Positions 5,647 through 21,832 of a stretch of 64,000 nt of DNA are shown piece after piece. The notes beneath the pieces were generated by a model. It searched no databases. It saw only the letters and a program-made list of their open reading frames with translations, and was not told the DNA's origin. Source of the DNA: Syntrophorhabdus sp. PtaB.Bin047 (GTDB lineage Bacteria > Desulfobacterota > Syntrophorhabdia > Syntrophorhabdales > Syntrophorhabdaceae); assembly GCA_002067235.1 (NCBI GenBank), contig MVQP01000003.1:1-64000 (forward strand). Reading direction: 5' to 3'. Each line of letters starts with the position of its first letter. Position 1 is the first letter of the stretch. The position numbers and the translations under genes were made by a program.

Positions 5647-6349
5647 GTTTGGGATTCTCTCTCTTCCTGAACCCATACCGCCATACCCACGGGTTCGATT
5701 CCCACGGATGTTTCTTGCCGTTGATGGAGTCCCAAAGGGTCCAGAAGGAATGAATCAGGTTGATGTGCTGAGGTAGAAGGGTTACGCCTTCCGCCTTCGC
5801 GTCCTCCTCCGTGATGTCCTGCAACCTCTCAGGTCGCACAGAGATGACCGGGCTCTTAATCCTCCATGCCCATTTTGGCAGGAAAATAGACGGCCTCCAC
5901 TTGCCACAGGCGGGATAACTATCGAGGCTCCATGCTGCCTCGCAAGGAGCAAGAATCTGTTTCTCCCCGATGTAGAAGGCTGCGTTATCGGCACGATAGA
6001 CAATGATCGGGGAACCGTACTCATCACATGTTTCGGCCCATGTCTCCTTGACACACAGGATGTCGCCGGGCTGGTAAGGGGAAGGGTTCTCGTAGGGCGT
6101 TCTGAGCAAGGCTTGAAGGAACTTATTTTCATCAGGATACCGATTGGCGTCCCAATTCTCGCCGCCTACTCCGTTCCTATCCCATGTATGGACGTGACCG
6201 TTAGGAAAGAATGTGGCCCAGGGAAAGTGAACCGTCCCGTTTTGTTCGACGACGGGTTGCGGCTTTATCACCCTTCTCGTCTGTGTCTTCCTTCCTTCAA
6301 TGATCGCGCGAACCATCGGGCCGCTGAACAGTATCGGCTTTTCGGGCAT
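5639..6349 (-). CDS. phage protein with ASCH/PUA-like region
   Basis: A 236-residue protein beginning MPEKPILFSGPMVRAII, followed by EGRKTQTRRVIKPQP. This opening is very common in phage proteins of the ASCH/PUA superfamily, which are thought to bind RNA or modified bases. PYQPGDILCVKETWAE resembles the family's GD(x)L.VRE.W core. GGAGG lies just upstream of the ATG. It is packed between the frameshifted radical-SAM gene and a small Cys protein. Function inferred only by family. Confidence 0.7.
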   Translation of the reverse strand: MPEKPILFSGPMVRAIIEGRKTQTRRVIKPQPVVEQNGTVHFPWATFFPNGHVHTWDRNGVGGENWDANRYPDENKFLQALLRTPYENPSPYQPGDILCVKETWAETCDEYGSPIIVYRADNAAFYIGEKQILAPCEAAWSLDSYPACGKWRPSIFLPKWAWRIKSPVISVRPERLQDITEEDAKAEGVTLLPQHINLIHSFWTLWDSINGKKHPWESNPWVWRYGFRKRENPKHV

Positions 6350-15491: not shown

Positions 15492-15534
15492 AAATCGGAG
15501 TGATACTCCAGTGTACGACACCGATACGGGGTTT
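15492..15534. repeat. operator-like repeat copy 1
   Basis: Matches the copy at 15660-15701 at most positions. Shared cores are GTGATAC and GTACGACACCGAT followed by GGGGTTT. This copy contains two small dyads, GGAGT-gat-ACTCC (15497-15509) and GTGT-acg-ACAC. It starts 24 nt upstream of the small HTH gene. Confidence 0.7.
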
Positions 15535-15659
15535 CGCAAGGGGTAAATCTTGTTTGGCGGGGCAAATTCTACGTGCTGTACCGGTTTATTGAGGAGAATT
15601 CTGGTTATTTTGGGTCTTTTTGTCTCATTTTAGGTATCTGATGTGACTGGTTTTATGGG

Positions 15660-15701
15660 AAATCGCAGTGATACGTCGGCGTACGACACCGATTGGGGTT
15701 T
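15660..15701. repeat. operator-like repeat copy 2
   Basis: Second copy of the repeat at 15492-15534, 168 bp further from the HTH gene, in the same orientation. The GTACGACACCGAT core is identical. Confidence 0.7.
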
Positions 15702-16042: not shown

Positions 16043-16689
16043 AGCAGGAAGGCGCGGCGGAAACCCAGCGAAAATATGGCCGGCGCGTCGACAGACCCCC
16101 CGTCTCCACCCCTCTCGCTCTACCACCCCGCAAACCCTTGCCGGGCCTGTCTCTACGTGCTACACCTGGTACACATAGTAACACCCGCTTACTCCTGCCT
16201 ATCCTGCCACATGACAGACACCCCGTCACCCCTTCCCGTTCTTCCCTTGCTACTAGTGCTATGGGTTATGGGTACTGGTTACTTATTTGGAATGGTTATT
16301 GATTTGGAATGGGTACTATCTGACAACCTATATTGACTACTTACCCGCAATCCCAAACTATACCCGCCTGCCTGCTGGGTTAGCTGTCCGGTCGGTTCCA
16401 TCGTGTTACTTCTATCTAGCTTGGTGTTACTGATATCATTGGAGTATAGCACGTTTCTATTTTCTCGTGCTACTACCTGTAGCTTTCTCTAACCCTAATT
16501 ATTTTTACTTTTTCTGCATTTTTTTCTTGACAGATTTTAAGGGTATCGGGGCATGGTAGCTAGATGCATAGATAGTCCTATGATATCAGGTAGTTACGGA
16601 CTAGTGCGAGTTCACGATATCCCTATTTTGACCTCTATTACTGTCTTATTAGCTAATGATATTGAGTACTTACGACGATAATAAACCTG

Positions 16690-16698
16690 TGTTATAAT
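16690..16698 (+). promoter_or_regulatory. extended -10 promoter of hicA (leaderless)
   Basis: TGT-TATAAT (extended -10; hexamer 16693-16698) with a weak -35 TTACGA 17 nt upstream. hicA's ATG is at 16705, 6 nt after the hexamer, so the mRNA should begin at the start codon. Confidence 0.75.
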
Positions 16699-16704
16699 AG
16701 ATTC

Positions 16705-16899
16705 ATGGCAAAGGTAAGAGATATCATCAAGCTGATTACGCAGGATGGTTGGTATCTTGTTTCTACTGAAGGCAGTCACAGGCAGTATAAGCACCCTGTC
16801 AAGGCGGGACGTGTCACTATTGCCGGGCACCCTAGCGACGACCTAGCACGCGGCACCCTCAAGAGCATTTTAAAGCAAGCGCAAATTGAGGTAAAATAA
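16705..16899 (+). CDS. hicA: HicA-family mRNA interferase toxin
   Basis: A 64-residue YcfA/HicA toxin: short dsRBD-like fold with the catalytic His in TEGSHRQYKHP and the typical TIAGHPSDDLARGTLKSILK end. It cleaves mRNA when free of HicB. The order toxin-antitoxin, with a 2-nt gap to hicB, is normal for hicAB. The first gene of the plus-strand island. Confidence 0.9.
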   Translation: MAKVRDIIKLITQDGWYLVSTEGSHRQYKHPVKAGRVTIAGHPSDDLARGTLKSILKQAQIEVK

Positions 16900-16901
16900 C
16901 C

Positions 16902-17177
16902 ATGGCTAAAATCATCGTAAGGGGTGCAAACATGGAAAGAGGTAAAGAGTATATGTTTCTGGTTATCATCGAAAAGGCGGAAAGAAACTTTTCGGCTTAC
17001 TCTCCCGATCTTCCGGGGTGTGTTGCTACTGGCAAGACCCTGGAAGAAGTTAAAGGGAACATGCAGGCAGCAATCGAAATGCACGTTAGGGGAATGATCG
17101 AAGACGGCTCACCGATCCCTGAACCTAGAAAGCGGGAAGAGTTCGCAGGTATCGAGTTTATGGCTGTAGCAGTCTGA
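16902..17177 (+). CDS. hicB: HicB-family antitoxin
   Basis: A 91-residue partner of HicA. The core FSAYSPDLPGCVATGKTLEE and the helix VKGNMQAAIEMHVRGMIEDG are typical HicB. There is no C-terminal DNA-binding domain, so this short form may not autoregulate by itself. It neutralises HicA and may help keep the prophage or island in the host. Confidence 0.88.
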   Translation: MAKIIVRGANMERGKEYMFLVIIEKAERNFSAYSPDLPGCVATGKTLEEVKGNMQAAIEMHVRGMIEDGSPIPEPRKREEFAGIEFMAVAV

Positions 17178-17194
17178 AGAAAGTAAGCGAAATA

Positions 17195-17267
17195 GCTCCT
17201 CAGTGTTGCGAGCGCTGAACAAGGAGCAAGAGCAAGAGCAGCACAAAACATAACGAAAGGGGAAAAC
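17195..17267 (+). ncRNA. structured RNA leader, copy A
   Basis: GCTCCT (17195-17200) pairs with AGGAGC (17222-17227), enclosing CAGTG/CGCTG with loop TTGCGAG. It is followed by ATAACGAAAGGGGAAAAC, which holds the ribosome site of the next gene. Leader B at 18305-18403 has the same loop, the same 3' end and a compensating stem, so this is a conserved element. Confidence 0.65.
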
Positions 17268-17357
17268 ATGTTAGACCTTACCGATTACACCGACAAGACA
17301 ATTGACGAAATAACAGATGATACTATTTCCGCCGTTCTGGAAGTGCTCCATGGGTGA
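17268..17357 (+). CDS. small acidic protein (29 aa)
   Basis: MLDLTDYTDKTIDEITDDTI is its start. It has a strong AAAGGGG ribosome site. Its stop overlaps the ATG of the next gene (ATGGGTGA). Very acidic. It follows RNA leader A directly, so it is the first gene under that leader. Function unknown. Confidence 0.6.
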   Translation: MLDLTDYTDKTIDEITDDTISAVLEVLHG

Positions 17358-17706
17358 GCCCGTCACGTTCTACGCTGTTGTTCCGGCCGGAAAGAGGAAA
17401 CTCGCGCAGCTATTGGTTGCGGTCGTTGACGGTCACACCGTGAAGAAGGAATACACGGGCAAGACCTACAAGACGAGCCGTGAAGCATGGACCGACATGG
17501 AAAGGCTGAACTGTATTGAGAAGGAAAAGCCAATTACGGACAATTCCCAGTTTTGCGGATCATATCCCTGTGACGGCGGGAAAGATTGTTGGATGAATGT
17601 TCACCCGACACGGTTACAGTGTGCCAAATGCCTGTGCTCATTCTGCACGCTCGGAAAATGCACGGGCGGGGATCTTATGAGGCAAGAAAGAAGGGGTGCA
17701 AAATGA
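17350..17706 (+). CDS. Cys-rich hypothetical protein (118 aa)
   Basis: The start MGEPVTFYAVVPAGKRK at 17350 overlaps the upstream small gene. The C-terminal half has eight Cys (FCGSYPCDGGKDCW; QCAKCLCSFCTLGKCTGG), suggesting one or two zinc or Fe-S sites. No family recognised. Confidence 0.7.
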   Translation: MGEPVTFYAVVPAGKRKLAQLLVAVVDGHTVKKEYTGKTYKTSREAWTDMERLNCIEKEKPITDNSQFCGSYPCDGGKDCWMNVHPTRLQCAKCLCSFCTLGKCTGGDLMRQERRGAK

Positions 17707-17906
17707 TGGTAAATGATATCAAGGTAGGCGATACGATCACCTTTAAATGTTCATCGGGAAGGGATTCAAGCTATTTCAGGAAGGCGACAAGAAAGGTGAC
17801 GGAAGTTCTGCCTGGCTGCAACATGGTGACCGTGACAAAGTTCGTCGGTTGGGAAAACTTCTATGTCCGGGGATCGGAAATACTGGAACACAAGAAGGGG
17901 GCATAA
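17703..17906 (+). CDS. hypothetical protein, KOW/SH3-like (67 aa)
   Basis: MMVNDIKVGDTITFKCSSGR, then TEVLPGCNMVTVTKFVGWEN: short beta-rich protein resembling SH3-like barrels. ATGA overlap with the upstream gene and AAGGGG upstream. Function unknown. Confidence 0.65.
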   Translation: MMVNDIKVGDTITFKCSSGRDSSYFRKATRKVTEVLPGCNMVTVTKFVGWENFYVRGSEILEHKKGA

Positions 17907-17907
17907 A

Positions 17908-18108
17908 GTGAAAATCGGATATATACCCCTTCATACCCCCGTGATTTATCGGGGCTGGCAATACGAGACCCGCACAGCGTGTAGCAGAGCATTTGGGACA
18001 ATCGGGATCATGAGCTACACTCCGGGCCTGTCTGGACCTGATGACGGGTATCATGTCAAGGTAGAAGAACTGGAAGAAATAAGGGAAATAGGGGTTTACC
18101 ATGACTAA
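17908..18108 (+). CDS. hypothetical protein (66 aa)
   Basis: GTG start at 17908, preceded by AAGGGGG. Begins MKIGYIPLHTPVIYRGWQYE, ends acidic (KVEELEEIREIGVYHD). In the same operon; overlaps the next gene by 8 nt. No family recognised. Confidence 0.6.
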   Translation: MKIGYIPLHTPVIYRGWQYETRTACSRAFGTIGIMSYTPGLSGPDDGYHVKVEELEEIREIGVYHD

Positions 18109-18298
18109 AACAGCTAAACGCGTCGCCTGGGCATTATCTACGGTAGAACCAATAGAAAAAAACGTATCAGAGCATGCCGTTTGGTGGTCGGCTTGTCATG
18201 CGGTGGTTTCTCAATTAGAGCTTCCGGGCAGCCACAACCAGCAATTTTTGCAGATGTGCCGATACGACTACTACAAGACGCATGCACAACCGAAGTAA
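18101..18298 (+). CDS. hypothetical protein (65 aa)
   Basis: MTKTAKRVAWALSTVEPIEK, helical, with a His/Gln-rich middle (LELPGSHNQQFLQMC). Overlaps the previous gene. Followed by RNA leader B. Function unknown. Confidence 0.6.
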   Translation: MTKTAKRVAWALSTVEPIEKNVSEHAVWWSACHAVVSQLELPGSHNQQFLQMCRYDYYKTHAQPK

Positions 18299-18304
18299 GC
18301 AAAA

Positions 18305-18403
18305 CCCCTTGGCATAACGAGCCGGGGAAAGGCTCCCAGTGTTGCGAGCACTGGACCAAGGGGCAACATAGTGTAGCACGAAACCATAACGAAAGGGGAA
18401 AAC
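18305..18403 (+). ncRNA. structured RNA leader, copy B
   Basis: Three stems make a junction. P1 is CCCCTTGG (18305-18312) with CCAAGGGG (18356-18363). P2 is GAGCC/GGCTC (18319-18335). P3 is CCAGTG/CACTGG (18336-18354) with loop TTGCGAG. The end ATAACGAAAGGGGAAAAC (18386-18403) carries the ardC ribosome site and is identical in leader A. P3 keeps its pairing despite base changes between copies. Confidence 0.7.
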
Positions 18404-19291
18404 ATGAAAGTCGAAGAAGTAATCACACAAAGAATCATGGAACAACTCGAACGGGGTGTAATTCCCTGGCAGCGTCCCTGGTCTGGTGGCGAAATGCCGA
18501 AAAACCTTGTCACGAAAAAGGAATACAAGGGGATCAACACCTTCATGCTCGCCGCGGCCGGTTTTTCGTCTCCCTTCTGGATGAGCTTCAAGCAGGTCAA
18601 GGAGCTTGGCGGATCGGTACTAAAGGGGTCTAAGGGTTTTCCGGTCGTGTTCTGGAAACAGCTTGACGTTAAGCCGAAAGGCAGCGAGACCGACGACGGC
18701 GAAACCCCGCAAGGATCGAGAAAAACCATACCTTTGTTGCGGTACTACACGGTTTTCAACGTGGATCAAACCGAAGGGATAGACCCGAAGAAAATCCCCG
18801 CACTGATTGCCCGGACCTACAACGACCTGGAGAAGAACAAGCAGTGTGAAGGCATCATCAAGAACATGCCGAAAAGACCTGGGATTGTTCACGCTGAACC
18901 GCGCGCGTACTATAGACCGTCTTCGGACGTCGTCAACATGCCGCGGTTTGAAACCTTCACAAGCTCCGAATACTACTACTCGACGCTGTTTCATGAGCTT
19001 ACGCATTCAACGGGGCACGAATCCCGCCTTAACAGAAAAGGGGTCTCGGGGTCCGATGGGCAATGGTCCGCCTTCGGATCGACGCCATACGCGAAAGAGG
19101 AGCTTGTCGCCGAAATGGGCGCCGCCTTTCTTTGCGGACACTGTCAGATTGAAAACAAGACCATCGACAACAGCGCCGCCTATATCCAGTCATGGCTAGG
19201 GAAATTAAGAAACGATCCGAAAATGGTCATTGTGGCCGCGGCACAGGCACAGCGGGCAAGTGACTTTATACGGGATCAGATAACGGAATAA
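18404..19291 (+). CDS. ardC: ArdC-like antirestriction protein
   Basis: A 295-residue protein. The N-terminal ssDNA-binding domain reads ITQRIMEQLERGVIPWQRPW, then KEYKGINTFML. The C-terminal zinc metallopeptidase-like domain has FHELTHSTGHESRL (HExxH) and EELVAEMGAAFLCG. ArdC proteins shield incoming DNA from host restriction during entry or conjugation. Here it is preceded by RNA leader B, which may time its translation. Usual length, all motifs present. Confidence 0.92.
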   Translation: MKVEEVITQRIMEQLERGVIPWQRPWSGGEMPKNLVTKKEYKGINTFMLAAAGFSSPFWMSFKQVKELGGSVLKGSKGFPVVFWKQLDVKPKGSETDDGETPQGSRKTIPLLRYYTVFNVDQTEGIDPKKIPALIARTYNDLEKNKQCEGIIKNMPKRPGIVHAEPRAYYRPSSDVVNMPRFETFTSSEYYYSTLFHELTHSTGHESRLNRKGVSGSDGQWSAFGSTPYAKEELVAEMGAAFLCGHCQIENKTIDNSAAYIQSWLGKLRNDPKMVIVAAAQAQRASDFIRDQITE

Positions 19292-19327
19292 CCCCTTTCA
19301 ATAGCTGTCCTATCGGCTATACGGGGA
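19292..19327 (+). promoter_or_regulatory. hairpin leader before the 196-aa gene
   Basis: CCCC...ATAGC (19292-19305) pairs with GCTAT..GGGG (19316-19326). The GGGGAAAGG ribosome site of the next gene overlaps the 3' arm, so the hairpin could limit translation. It is not the same motif as leaders A and B. Confidence 0.5.
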
Positions 19328-19339
19328 AAGGATAAAGCC

Positions 19340-19930
19340 ATGAGAACGAAAACGATCACGATATATAAATTCGATGAATTGCCCGAAGATGCACAGACAA
19401 GAGCCGTTGAAAATCTTTATGACGTGAATGTAGACAGTGATTACTGGCATGAATTCGCTATTGACGATGCCAAACAGATTGCCGCCTTAATGGGCATCGA
19501 GATCAAAAACATCTATTTCTCGGGGTTCTCTTCCCAAGGAGACGGCGCTTGTTTCGAGGGGTCCTATTCCTACCAGAAAGGCAGCGTTAAGGCAGTGAAG
19601 GAACACGCGCCACAAGATGAAGAACTTCACCGGATAGCTCAAGACCTTGCGGACCTGCAGAGACGTCATTTCTACAGGCTCACGGCCAAGGTAAAGCATA
19701 GCGGCCACTACTACCATGAATACTGTACGAGCATTGACGTTGAAGACAACGGCGACGGCGCGCCGGAAACAGTTTATGACGGCATAGCCGAATTCCTTCG
19801 GGACTTCATGCACTGGATTTATAGGCAGTTGGAGAAGGAACACGATTACATGACAAGTGATGAAGCGATTATTGAGACGATCCGCGCGAATGAATACGAG
19901 TTCTACGAAAACGGCAAGCTGGCCGCGTAG
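19340..19930 (+). CDS. phage 'antitoxin of TA stability system'-like protein
   Basis: A 196-residue protein beginning TITIYKFDELPEDAQTRAVE, with NIYFSGFSSQGDGACFEGSY and then ELHRIAQDLADLQRRHFYRL. This set of motifs marks a phage family often labelled 'antitoxin of toxin-antitoxin stability system'. The label is weakly supported by experiment, and no partner toxin is obvious beside it apart from the distant hicA. Function uncertain. Confidence 0.65.
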   Translation: MRTKTITIYKFDELPEDAQTRAVENLYDVNVDSDYWHEFAIDDAKQIAALMGIEIKNIYFSGFSSQGDGACFEGSYSYQKGSVKAVKEHAPQDEELHRIAQDLADLQRRHFYRLTAKVKHSGHYYHEYCTSIDVEDNGDGAPETVYDGIAEFLRDFMHWIYRQLEKEHDYMTSDEAIIETIRANEYEFYENGKLAA

Positions 19931-19944
19931 AGAAGGGGGATAAA

Positions 19945-20109
19945 ATGGAAGACAACAAATCTTTGGAACTGGCCGAAATCCACAGACTGAACCAGTTGAA
20001 CGCAGAAATGCTGTCCATGCTCAAGGACGTTGTCGAACTGTTGGCCGATGATACCGGGGAATGGATAGATCGGGTAAAAGCCCTGATCGAGAAGGCGGAA
20101 AGGAAATAA
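19945..20109 (+). CDS. small coiled-coil protein (54 aa)
   Basis: Begins MEDNKSLELAEIHRLNQLNA; predicted helical throughout and acidic, possibly a coiled coil. AGAAGGGGG ribosome site. The next gene follows after 1 nt. Function unknown. Confidence 0.65.
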   Translation: MEDNKSLELAEIHRLNQLNAEMLSMLKDVVELLADDTGEWIDRVKALIEKAERK

Positions 20110-20110
20110 C

Positions 20111-20359
20111 ATGGATACCTCGAAGCAAAAACGCGCTTGGCAGTCCATCCATCAGGAGCTTAACGGGTTTGTCGATCCCTATCGCACATGGAAAACCTAC
20201 CGTACCGATAGCGGCATGGGTGGAACATTTGACCTGAAATATCACGGCATGGAGCAAGGAAAACATGTGTTTTCCGTTCTCAACAAGGGGTTTGAGGAGC
20301 TGGTATTTGTGTGGACACCCGAACAGGCTGAAAGAAATATACAGAAGGGGACGCCATGA
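20111..20359 (+). CDS. hypothetical protein (82 aa)
   Basis: MDTSKQKRAWQSIHQELNGF, with ELVFVWTPEQAERNIQKGTP at the end. Overlaps the next small gene (ATGA). No family recognised. Confidence 0.65.
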   Translation: MDTSKQKRAWQSIHQELNGFVDPYRTWKTYRTDSGMGGTFDLKYHGMEQGKHVFSVLNKGFEELVFVWTPEQAERNIQKGTP

Positions 20360-20526
20360 AACAATCAGAACAAACGCAACTTTTCGATCTGTCAAAAACA
20401 TTCAGCCTGTCCGGGGATCAGCCAGTAAAGGTGAAACAGTTTACCCCGCCTGTTCACGAGCAGAAAACAACCTTGTTCGGGAAAAAGGTCATGAAACGGG
20501 ACTATGAAAGGGTGAACCATGGCTAG
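20356..20526 (+). CDS. small hypothetical protein (56 aa)
   Basis: Begins MKQSEQTQLFDLSKTFSLSG and ends KRDYERVNHG. Overlaps both neighbours (ATGA at its start, ATGGCTAG at its end), which supports translation. Basic and probably disordered. The QLFDL near the N-terminus resembles a clamp-binding motif (QxLFDL-like), so it might dock on the phage's own DnaN; this is speculative. Confidence 0.6.
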   Translation: MKQSEQTQLFDLSKTFSLSGDQPVKVKQFTPPVHEQKTTLFGKKVMKRDYERVNHG

Positions 20527-21832
20527 AAAAACGCTGCACAGTGTTGTTGTCTCTATGGGCGGTATCTCCAGGGACCGGGCCGGAAAAGCAGGATATGACA
20601 GCAAGACCTTTCTGGAAAATCGCTTGAGGGGGATTTTCAGGAAAGGCGGTCGGTCCGCGGATGACCTGGCAAGCGAGATCATAGGCATGGGGATCATCCC
20701 GCCTTGCCCGGACAACATGAATACCGACGATTGGCTGATTAAGTGCCTCATGGATGAAAGACAGGGGCTCGACGTTACGATTGAACAATTGGAAAATCTT
20801 GATAAACTGTATGCGGCACAGGAGCGGGAAGCTCTGAAAGAGCTTGAGGGGGCATTGAAGGATGAAGGAAAAACAGAAAGAGAAATCGAAACAGTCGTTG
20901 AAAGGGTTCGAGGACGTATTGAAGAAGAGGAGTATCTTGAAGCGTATTATCTCGACGCTGAAGAAGACGAAGAAGTATTGCTTGCAAATTTTGGCGCCAC
21001 TATAGAGAAGGAAGAGTCGACCGCTGCGCCGGCGATCCCCAGCACATGGCCGGGCAAGGTGTTCAGGCAGTACCTCACCGAAAAGGGTCTGTCAACTATC
21101 CCGGCCAATCCCTGGGAGCTTGAAGACTATGTGCCATGGCTCCGAGAAAACGGATACAAAGCAACGTCCATCGTCGCGCTGCTTGCACCGGTCCGGGAAA
21201 TGTACCGCCGCGTAGGCATCGAGACCAAGCGGATCATAAAGGGGCCGAAAAACCGGGTGACGTTTCTCAGGGATCCTTTGTCAGAAGAAAACGCGCGCGC
21301 GCTCATGAGCTATGCTGAAACACATTGTTCTCTCCGGGATTGCCTGATCGTTAAACTAATGCTTTACCTGGGGCTCCGGGACGTGGAAATCTCTCGCATG
21401 GATGCCGGGGACTTCTTCCCATTCGATGACACACATATCGTCAAGCTGTGGCGAAAGGGACACACAGGAAAGGATATCGAAAAGAAGGTCTCGGGGGGTC
21501 TATTGAAGACTTTCCTTGAATATCAGGAACAGGAGTCGTCAACGAGTCGTAAACCGGATGAACCCATGTTCCTGGGAGCATACGGGGACCGGATCCGGCC
21601 GGACGTGGTGAGCCGGACCATTGCCCGGATCATGAAAAAGGCCGGGGTCAAAAACGCAAGCAACAGTCACAGGATAAGCCCGCACAGCCTGAGACATACG
21701 GCCATAACCAAAGTGGCGAAAGAGACAAAGAATTCTTTCCTCATAATGCAGTTCGCGGATCACGAGGATCTGAGATATACAAAACCGTACCTGCATCACG
21801 TGGAAAGCCCGGAACTGTTGATAAAATGGTAA
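20519..21832 (+). CDS. second tyrosine recombinase with unusual N-terminal domain
   Basis: A 437-residue protein. The C-terminal half (about 175-437) is a tyrosine recombinase: Arg287 (YLGLRDVEI), Lys around 313-318 (WRKGHTGK), His389-x-x-Arg392 (HSLRHT), His415 (ADHED) and likely nucleophile Tyr424 (TKPYLHH). Residues 10-60 (GISRDRAGKAGYDSKTFLEN, LRGIFRKGGRSADDLASEII) resemble domains of large polyvalent phage/conjugation proteins. Residues ~90-165 are an acidic coiled coil. It closes the plus-strand island and may move it, or resolve phage multimers. ADH in place of LGH is a mild departure from the consensus. Confidence 0.82.
   Translation: MARKTLHSVVVSMGGISRDRAGKAGYDSKTFLENRLRGIFRKGGRSADDLASEIIGMGIIPPCPDNMNTDDWLIKCLMDERQGLDVTIEQLENLDKLYAAQEREALKELEGALKDEGKTEREIETVVERVRGRIEEEEYLEAYYLDAEEDEEVLLANFGATIEKEESTAAPAIPSTWPGKVFRQYLTEKGLSTIPANPWELEDYVPWLRENGYKATSIVALLAPVREMYRRVGIETKRIIKGPKNRVTFLRDPLSEENARALMSYAETHCSLRDCLIVKLMLYLGLRDVEISRMDAGDFFPFDDTHIVKLWRKGHTGKDIEKKVSGGLLKTFLEYQEQESSTSRKPDEPMFLGAYGDRIRPDVVSRTIARIMKKAGVKNASNSHRISPHSLRHTAITKVAKETKNSFLIMQFADHEDLRYTKPYLHHVESPELLIKW

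Follow-up and report, generated by a model that had tools for sequence, protein, structure and literature searches.

To our knowledge, the fast switch-on and later repression of antirestriction genes is understood for only a few plasmids. The nearest published case to the locus described here appears to be establishment gene regulatory sequence type 1 (EGeRS1) of the Bacillus plasmid pLS20, a foldable sequence of 420-750 bp that recurs immediately upstream of the ribosome sites of ardC and of four further operons, contains no detectable constitutive promoter, and blocks read-through expression in one orientation (PMC8708921). Two further elements bear some likeness to our locus: the STAXI motif (RF01728), a candidate structured RNA of Enterobacteriales that is built from two or three tandem pseudoknot repeats and lies close to genes for antirestriction, SSB and integrase (PMC2864571), and the Frpo/ssi promoters, which fold ahead of the anti-defence genes that mobile elements carry, act on single-stranded DNA entering by conjugation and have their -10 and -35 elements within the fold (PMC11541004).

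We analyzed a 64,000-nucleotide stretch of Syntrophorhabdus sp. PtaB.Bin047 (the window), in which, as with EGeRS1, copies of a foldable sequence directly precede the ribosome site of ardC and that of another gene. The likeness is one of arrangement, and there are clear differences: the leaders measure ~75-100 nt rather than 420-750 bp, they lie in a prophage rather than on a Bacillus conjugative plasmid, and leader 2 had no match among PLSDB plasmids by blastn. The leaders are not STAXI motifs, as they have no Rfam match and so no tandem pseudoknot repeats that fit that model. They also differ from Frpo/ssi promoters in setting, since tailed-phage head and tail genes surround them; a simple sigma-70 scan, which covers ordinary promoters, found no -35/-10 pair at the leaders.

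Judged by gene content, the host element of the leaders is a tailed prophage beside tRNA-Arg; the window encodes a tail tape measure, a central tail fibre J and major head proteins. The tRNA-Arg (CCT; 1-76) adjoins an integrase (113-1180), the two marking the prophage end. A + strand segment further in reads, in order, hicA, hicB, leader 1, a 29-aa ORF, an overlapping ORF, small ORFs, leader 2, ardC, a phrog_5162 gene and a tyrosine recombinase (20519-21832, +; PF00589, phrog_216), which is the second in the window and differs from the terminal integrase. The hicA/hicB toxin-antitoxin pair (16705-17177, +; PF07927, E 1.9e-23; PF15919, E 4.2e-12) lies just upstream of leader 1. Behind leader 1 we read the 29-aa ORF (MLDLTDYTDKTIDEITDDTISAVLEVLHG; 17268-17357, +) and, starting within its end, an ORF without Pfam or PHROG match (17349-17706, +). 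Behind leader 2 lies an ArdC-type antirestriction gene (18404-19291, +) encoding ArdcN plus MPTase-PolyVal domains (PF08401, E 4.6e-35; PF18818, E 1.3e-37; also phrog_7245). The genes downstream of the two leaders are thus unrelated, as the first-pass annotation had stated; the control of antirestriction that it suggested cannot be the only role, because copy 1 precedes a different gene. By eye, the gap after ardC (19292-19339) contains a possible hairpin (CCCCTTTC-A-ATAGC...GCTAT-A-CGGGGAAAGG) that would cover what is likely the next gene's ribosome site, and the non-coding region at 15500-15700 contains a near-repeat (GTGATAC..GTACGACACCGAT).

The two leaders, read from the sequence on the + strand at 17195-17267 (copy 1) and 18305-18403 (copy 2), are paralogous, as the first-pass annotation had proposed. 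A repeat search of the window found blocks of 26 nt and 20 nt common to both at a single offset of 1136, and copy-1 and copy-2 sequences, taken from the window and from the one other carrier described below, matched at 82-83% over 72-77 nt (blastn, E 6.7e-12). In copy 1, the predicted outer stem P1 (GCTCCT/AGGAGC; 17195-17200/17222-17227) encloses hairpin P3 (CAGTG-TTGCGAG-CGCTG; stem 17201-17205/17213-17217, loop TTGCGAG 17206-17212), and a linker leads to the ribosome site GGGG (17259-17262). In copy 2, P1 (CCCCTTGG/CCAAGGGG; 18305-18312/18356-18363) encloses both P3 (CCAGTG-TTGCGAG-CACTGG; stem 18336-18341/18349-18354, with the same loop at 18342-18348) and an extra hairpin absent from copy 1, P2 (GAGCC-GGGGAAA-GGCTC; stem 18319-18323/18331-18335, loop GGGGAAA), giving a three-way junction; the ribosome site GGGG follows at 18395-18398. 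The shared loop and the outer stems of the earlier description were accordingly present in both copies. Between the copies, P3 (CAGTG-TTGCGAG-CRCTG) is identical at 16/17 positions and the closing stretch of 22 nt, which runs through the ATG, at 22/22, both leaders ending in CATAACGAAAGGGGAAAACATG, whereas the linker has diverged. The identity of the ribosome-site end, correctly reported before, is partly generic, because the block is nearly matched (ACGAAAGGGGAAAACATG) in another genome of the phylum where no hairpin accompanies it. P2 itself resembles the ribosome block (CATAACGA..GGGGAAA), a score that leader shuffles reach 0.7% of the time, and its loop is perhaps a Shine-Dalgarno-like loop.

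Folding on the + strand gave -17.1 kcal/mol for the 51-nt core of copy 1 (z -2.4 against dinucleotide shuffles) and -33.0 kcal/mol for the 77-nt core of copy 2 (z -3.5). Copy 1 extended to its start codon folded no better than dinucleotide shuffles (z -0.67). The inner-stem difference between the copies (CAGTG/CGCTG versus CAGTG/CACTG), which had been presented as compensating, is one-sided, a U-G pair replaced by U-A, and the earlier wording overstated it.

The same module, with both leaders and an ArdC 97% identical, occurs in one IMG/VR phage contig, 3300022177_000062 (L009, L168, L172 and L304). Between the window and this contig, copy 1 differs in P1 by a double change, U-A to C-G, and copy 2, whose stems are identical, differs inside its folded part only by a single base in the P2 loop. 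When the four copies were aligned after P2 and the sequence flanking it had been removed from copy 2 to bring the cores into register, 42 of 44 pair cells (11 pairs, four sequences) were kept; one P1 pair had changed on both sides (U-A/C-G) and one pair on one side. Differences in the stems preserve pairing except at the outermost P1 pair. The covariation is not significant, as column shuffles of these four sequences, in effect two pairs, reached the observed level 130/500 times. The P1/P3 structure is consistent with the data and unproven from four sequences.

Homology between the window and the phage contig is split into two blocks, 17180-17353 and 18296-19337, that start near the 5' ends of the leaders, with different genes between and upstream of them; immediately ahead of leader 2, the two elements have unrelated genes. 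From this comparison, leader and downstream gene appear to travel together as a cassette. The 29-aa ORF and its homologue in the contig differ by eight synonymous and six non-synonymous codon differences. Copy-specific features (P2, P1 and the G/A difference in P3) are common to the window and contig orthologues, which places the duplication before the split of the two phages; since then, P3 and the ribosome block have been retained and the linker has changed.

Further searches returned this contig or nothing. At gathering threshold, a cmscan of the window against Rfam 15 and a permissive scan of 16500-19500 gave no family except tRNA, and two far sub-threshold matches lay elsewhere; the earlier description of the RNA as unnamed therefore stands. 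The covariance-model search proposed with that description recovered both copies and found nothing more in the organism's own genome, 39 genomes of the family and 395 of the phylum (~435 in all), the weak matches among these genomes lacking the fold and one being merely a similar ribosome site. Six other viral contigs contained the exact P3 pattern, none in leader context; the loop plus ribosome-site pattern gave no homologue among the matches listed and fetched, as judged by stem check or model; and the 16700-20500 segment had no match among phage records. Contig 3300022177_000062 was the only return from the ribosome-block search and from an integrase-based search. ArdC loci of related genomes contained no such leader, and about 160 ArdC loci together with several viral scans yielded no homologue beyond the same contig. 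We conclude that the two copies probably represent a small new leader RNA family.

The search of ArdC loci also gave two wider results. Across 137 distinct loci (among L009-L167), the 110 nt before ArdC had a mean folding z of -1.94, with 29% below -3, compared with a mean of -0.60 and 6% below -3 for 423 other leaders of the same loci, whose ORF starts were called by a simple rule (Mann-Whitney p 5e-14, an optimistic value, as the loci are related to each other). The excess persisted with longer control ORFs and without T runs. ArdC upstream regions were structured in many phyla, with many different folds, and a same-strand repeat within the locus was found for 22/137 ArdC leaders versus 32/423 others. 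In one set of viral contigs, a hairpin whose internal loop is AA/A recurs on the sense strand ahead of many genes, ArdC among them (L016:1540-4541; also L012, L014, L022, L025, L028, L029, L035, L036, L052 and L083, and more weakly L077 and L085). Among 19 copies of this hairpin, 16/19 pairs showed double changes and 96.7% of cells were paired, a level reached by 0/500 shuffles, and its model, R2, found 78 places, all on the sense strand. The family has no Rfam match. It is not homologous to the window leader, being unrelated in sequence and fold, and R2 has no match in the window; it covaries strongly, more than the window leader is seen to do. It is nonetheless, by comparison, the same kind of thing: a structured, repeated element that precedes ArdC and further genes in sense orientation. 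Upstream of ArdC in L015, L018, L023, L024, L030, L032 and L033 we noticed an apparent further leader family, with CCCTGCC...GGGGCGGGG hairpins and a second hairpin, and in L018 a similar hairpin also precedes a further gene at ~3400. In L111, the ArdC leader, which is that of a Mariniphaga MAG, recurs on the same strand at three other places in the locus (445-487, 2743-2872 and 5858-5996).

The best reading of the window locus, which on its sequence features we regard as evenly poised between right and wrong, is a duplicated cis-acting leader RNA that acts on the downstream ribosome site. In the + strand mRNA, each copy would fold into P1 carrying P3 with its UUGCGAG loop, P2 would add the three-way junction in copy 2, and the folded part would end ~40 nt before the start codon. 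Travelling with its downstream gene as a cassette, the leader would most likely work post-transcriptionally and in cis, by affecting how ribosomes reach that gene, and the two cassettes may then respond together. Duplication, foldability, position and cassette boundaries are seen in the sequence, whereas transcription of the leader as part of the mRNA and a regulatory role are what we infer. The reading is favored because P3 and the ribosome block were kept between old duplicates while the linker diverged, and because ArdC upstream regions in other lineages are more often structured than those of other genes; it is weakened because copy 1 folded to its start codon does no better than shuffles and lacks P2. 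The first-pass annotation's structured leader RNA thus survives as the best-supported reading, by position, the + strand U-G pair, the retention of P3 and the absence of promoter- or terminator-like sites, its covariation being minimal and its other carriers one. The last of these supports comes from a terminator scan of the + strand, in which neither leader had a G+C-rich hairpin with a T run behind it, and from a simple sigma-70 scan of that strand, also negative, which covers ordinary promoters as distinct from promoters formed by folding. A switch between two states seems quite improbable as the mode of action; in it, the P1 5' strand would pair with the Shine-Dalgarno GGGG and GUGUUGC with the linker (GCAGCAC, GUAGCAC or GUAACAC). 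In constrained folds the sequestered state lay ~3-7 kcal/mol above the minimum free energy, and a pair of the alternative helix is broken in one copy (V1) out of four.

An unlikely alternative is that the hairpins process or stabilize mRNA, serving as an intergenic RNase site like the RNase III sites of phage T7 or as a 5'-end protector, and so separate each cassette from upstream transcripts with no regulated response. Such a role would suit the intergenic position in a phage segment, the stable hairpin before each ribosome site, and the analogous hairpin family before many genes of other ArdC-bearing viral contigs. Copy 1, however, has helices of 6+5 bp and copy 2 helices of 8 plus 6-8 bp, which is short for an RNase III substrate; a T7-type site comprises about two helix turns with an internal loop and is cleaved in vivo.

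Less probable still, the leaders may be boundary repeats that provide homology for swapping cassettes between phages, their folding being incidental. The homology blocks do start close to the leaders, and the genes between and ahead of them differ, but P3 and the ribosome block were kept while the linker and the P1 sequence diverged, and P1 nevertheless stayed paired; this argues against a pure homology arm, which would not favor stems.

We think it very doubtful that the element works at the DNA level, as an operator or as a single-stranded-DNA promoter of the Frpo/ssi type. Plasmid anti-defence genes do use such promoters (PMC11541004), and copy 2 folds well as single-stranded DNA on both strands (z -3.1 and -3.7). 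Against this, the host is a tailed phage whose head and tail genes point to double-stranded DNA entry, the scan for ordinary promoters returned no -35/-10 pair at the leaders, and in copy 1 the U-G pair, possible only on the + strand, becomes an A-C mismatch on the other strand, where P1/P3 is not the predicted fold.

A short leader peptide translated from within P3 (GTG TTG CGA GCR CTG ...) is hardly credible and was rejected: its frame is open in all four copies and the G/A difference in P3 is synonymous, but 3/3 window-contig differences in copy 1 and 1/2 in copy 2 change an amino acid, and no ribosome site precedes the GTG in copy 1. An attC-like recombination site was set aside by eye, as there is no GTTRRRY/RYYYAAC core.

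Returning to the leader-RNA reading, we tentatively suggest, as a possibility we would not yet bet on, that the ArdC genes of many unrelated phages and elements are controlled post-transcriptionally by lineage-specific structured leaders, often repeated before other genes, and that the window leader is one such family. If true, leader RNAs would have evolved independently, time and again, to act on antirestriction genes. This general ArdC pattern is a more interesting lead than the window leader family itself. Together, a repeated leader that ties ardC to another phage cassette and the structured upstream regions of ArdC genes would offer a concrete and testable entry to post-transcriptional control of anti-defence functions.
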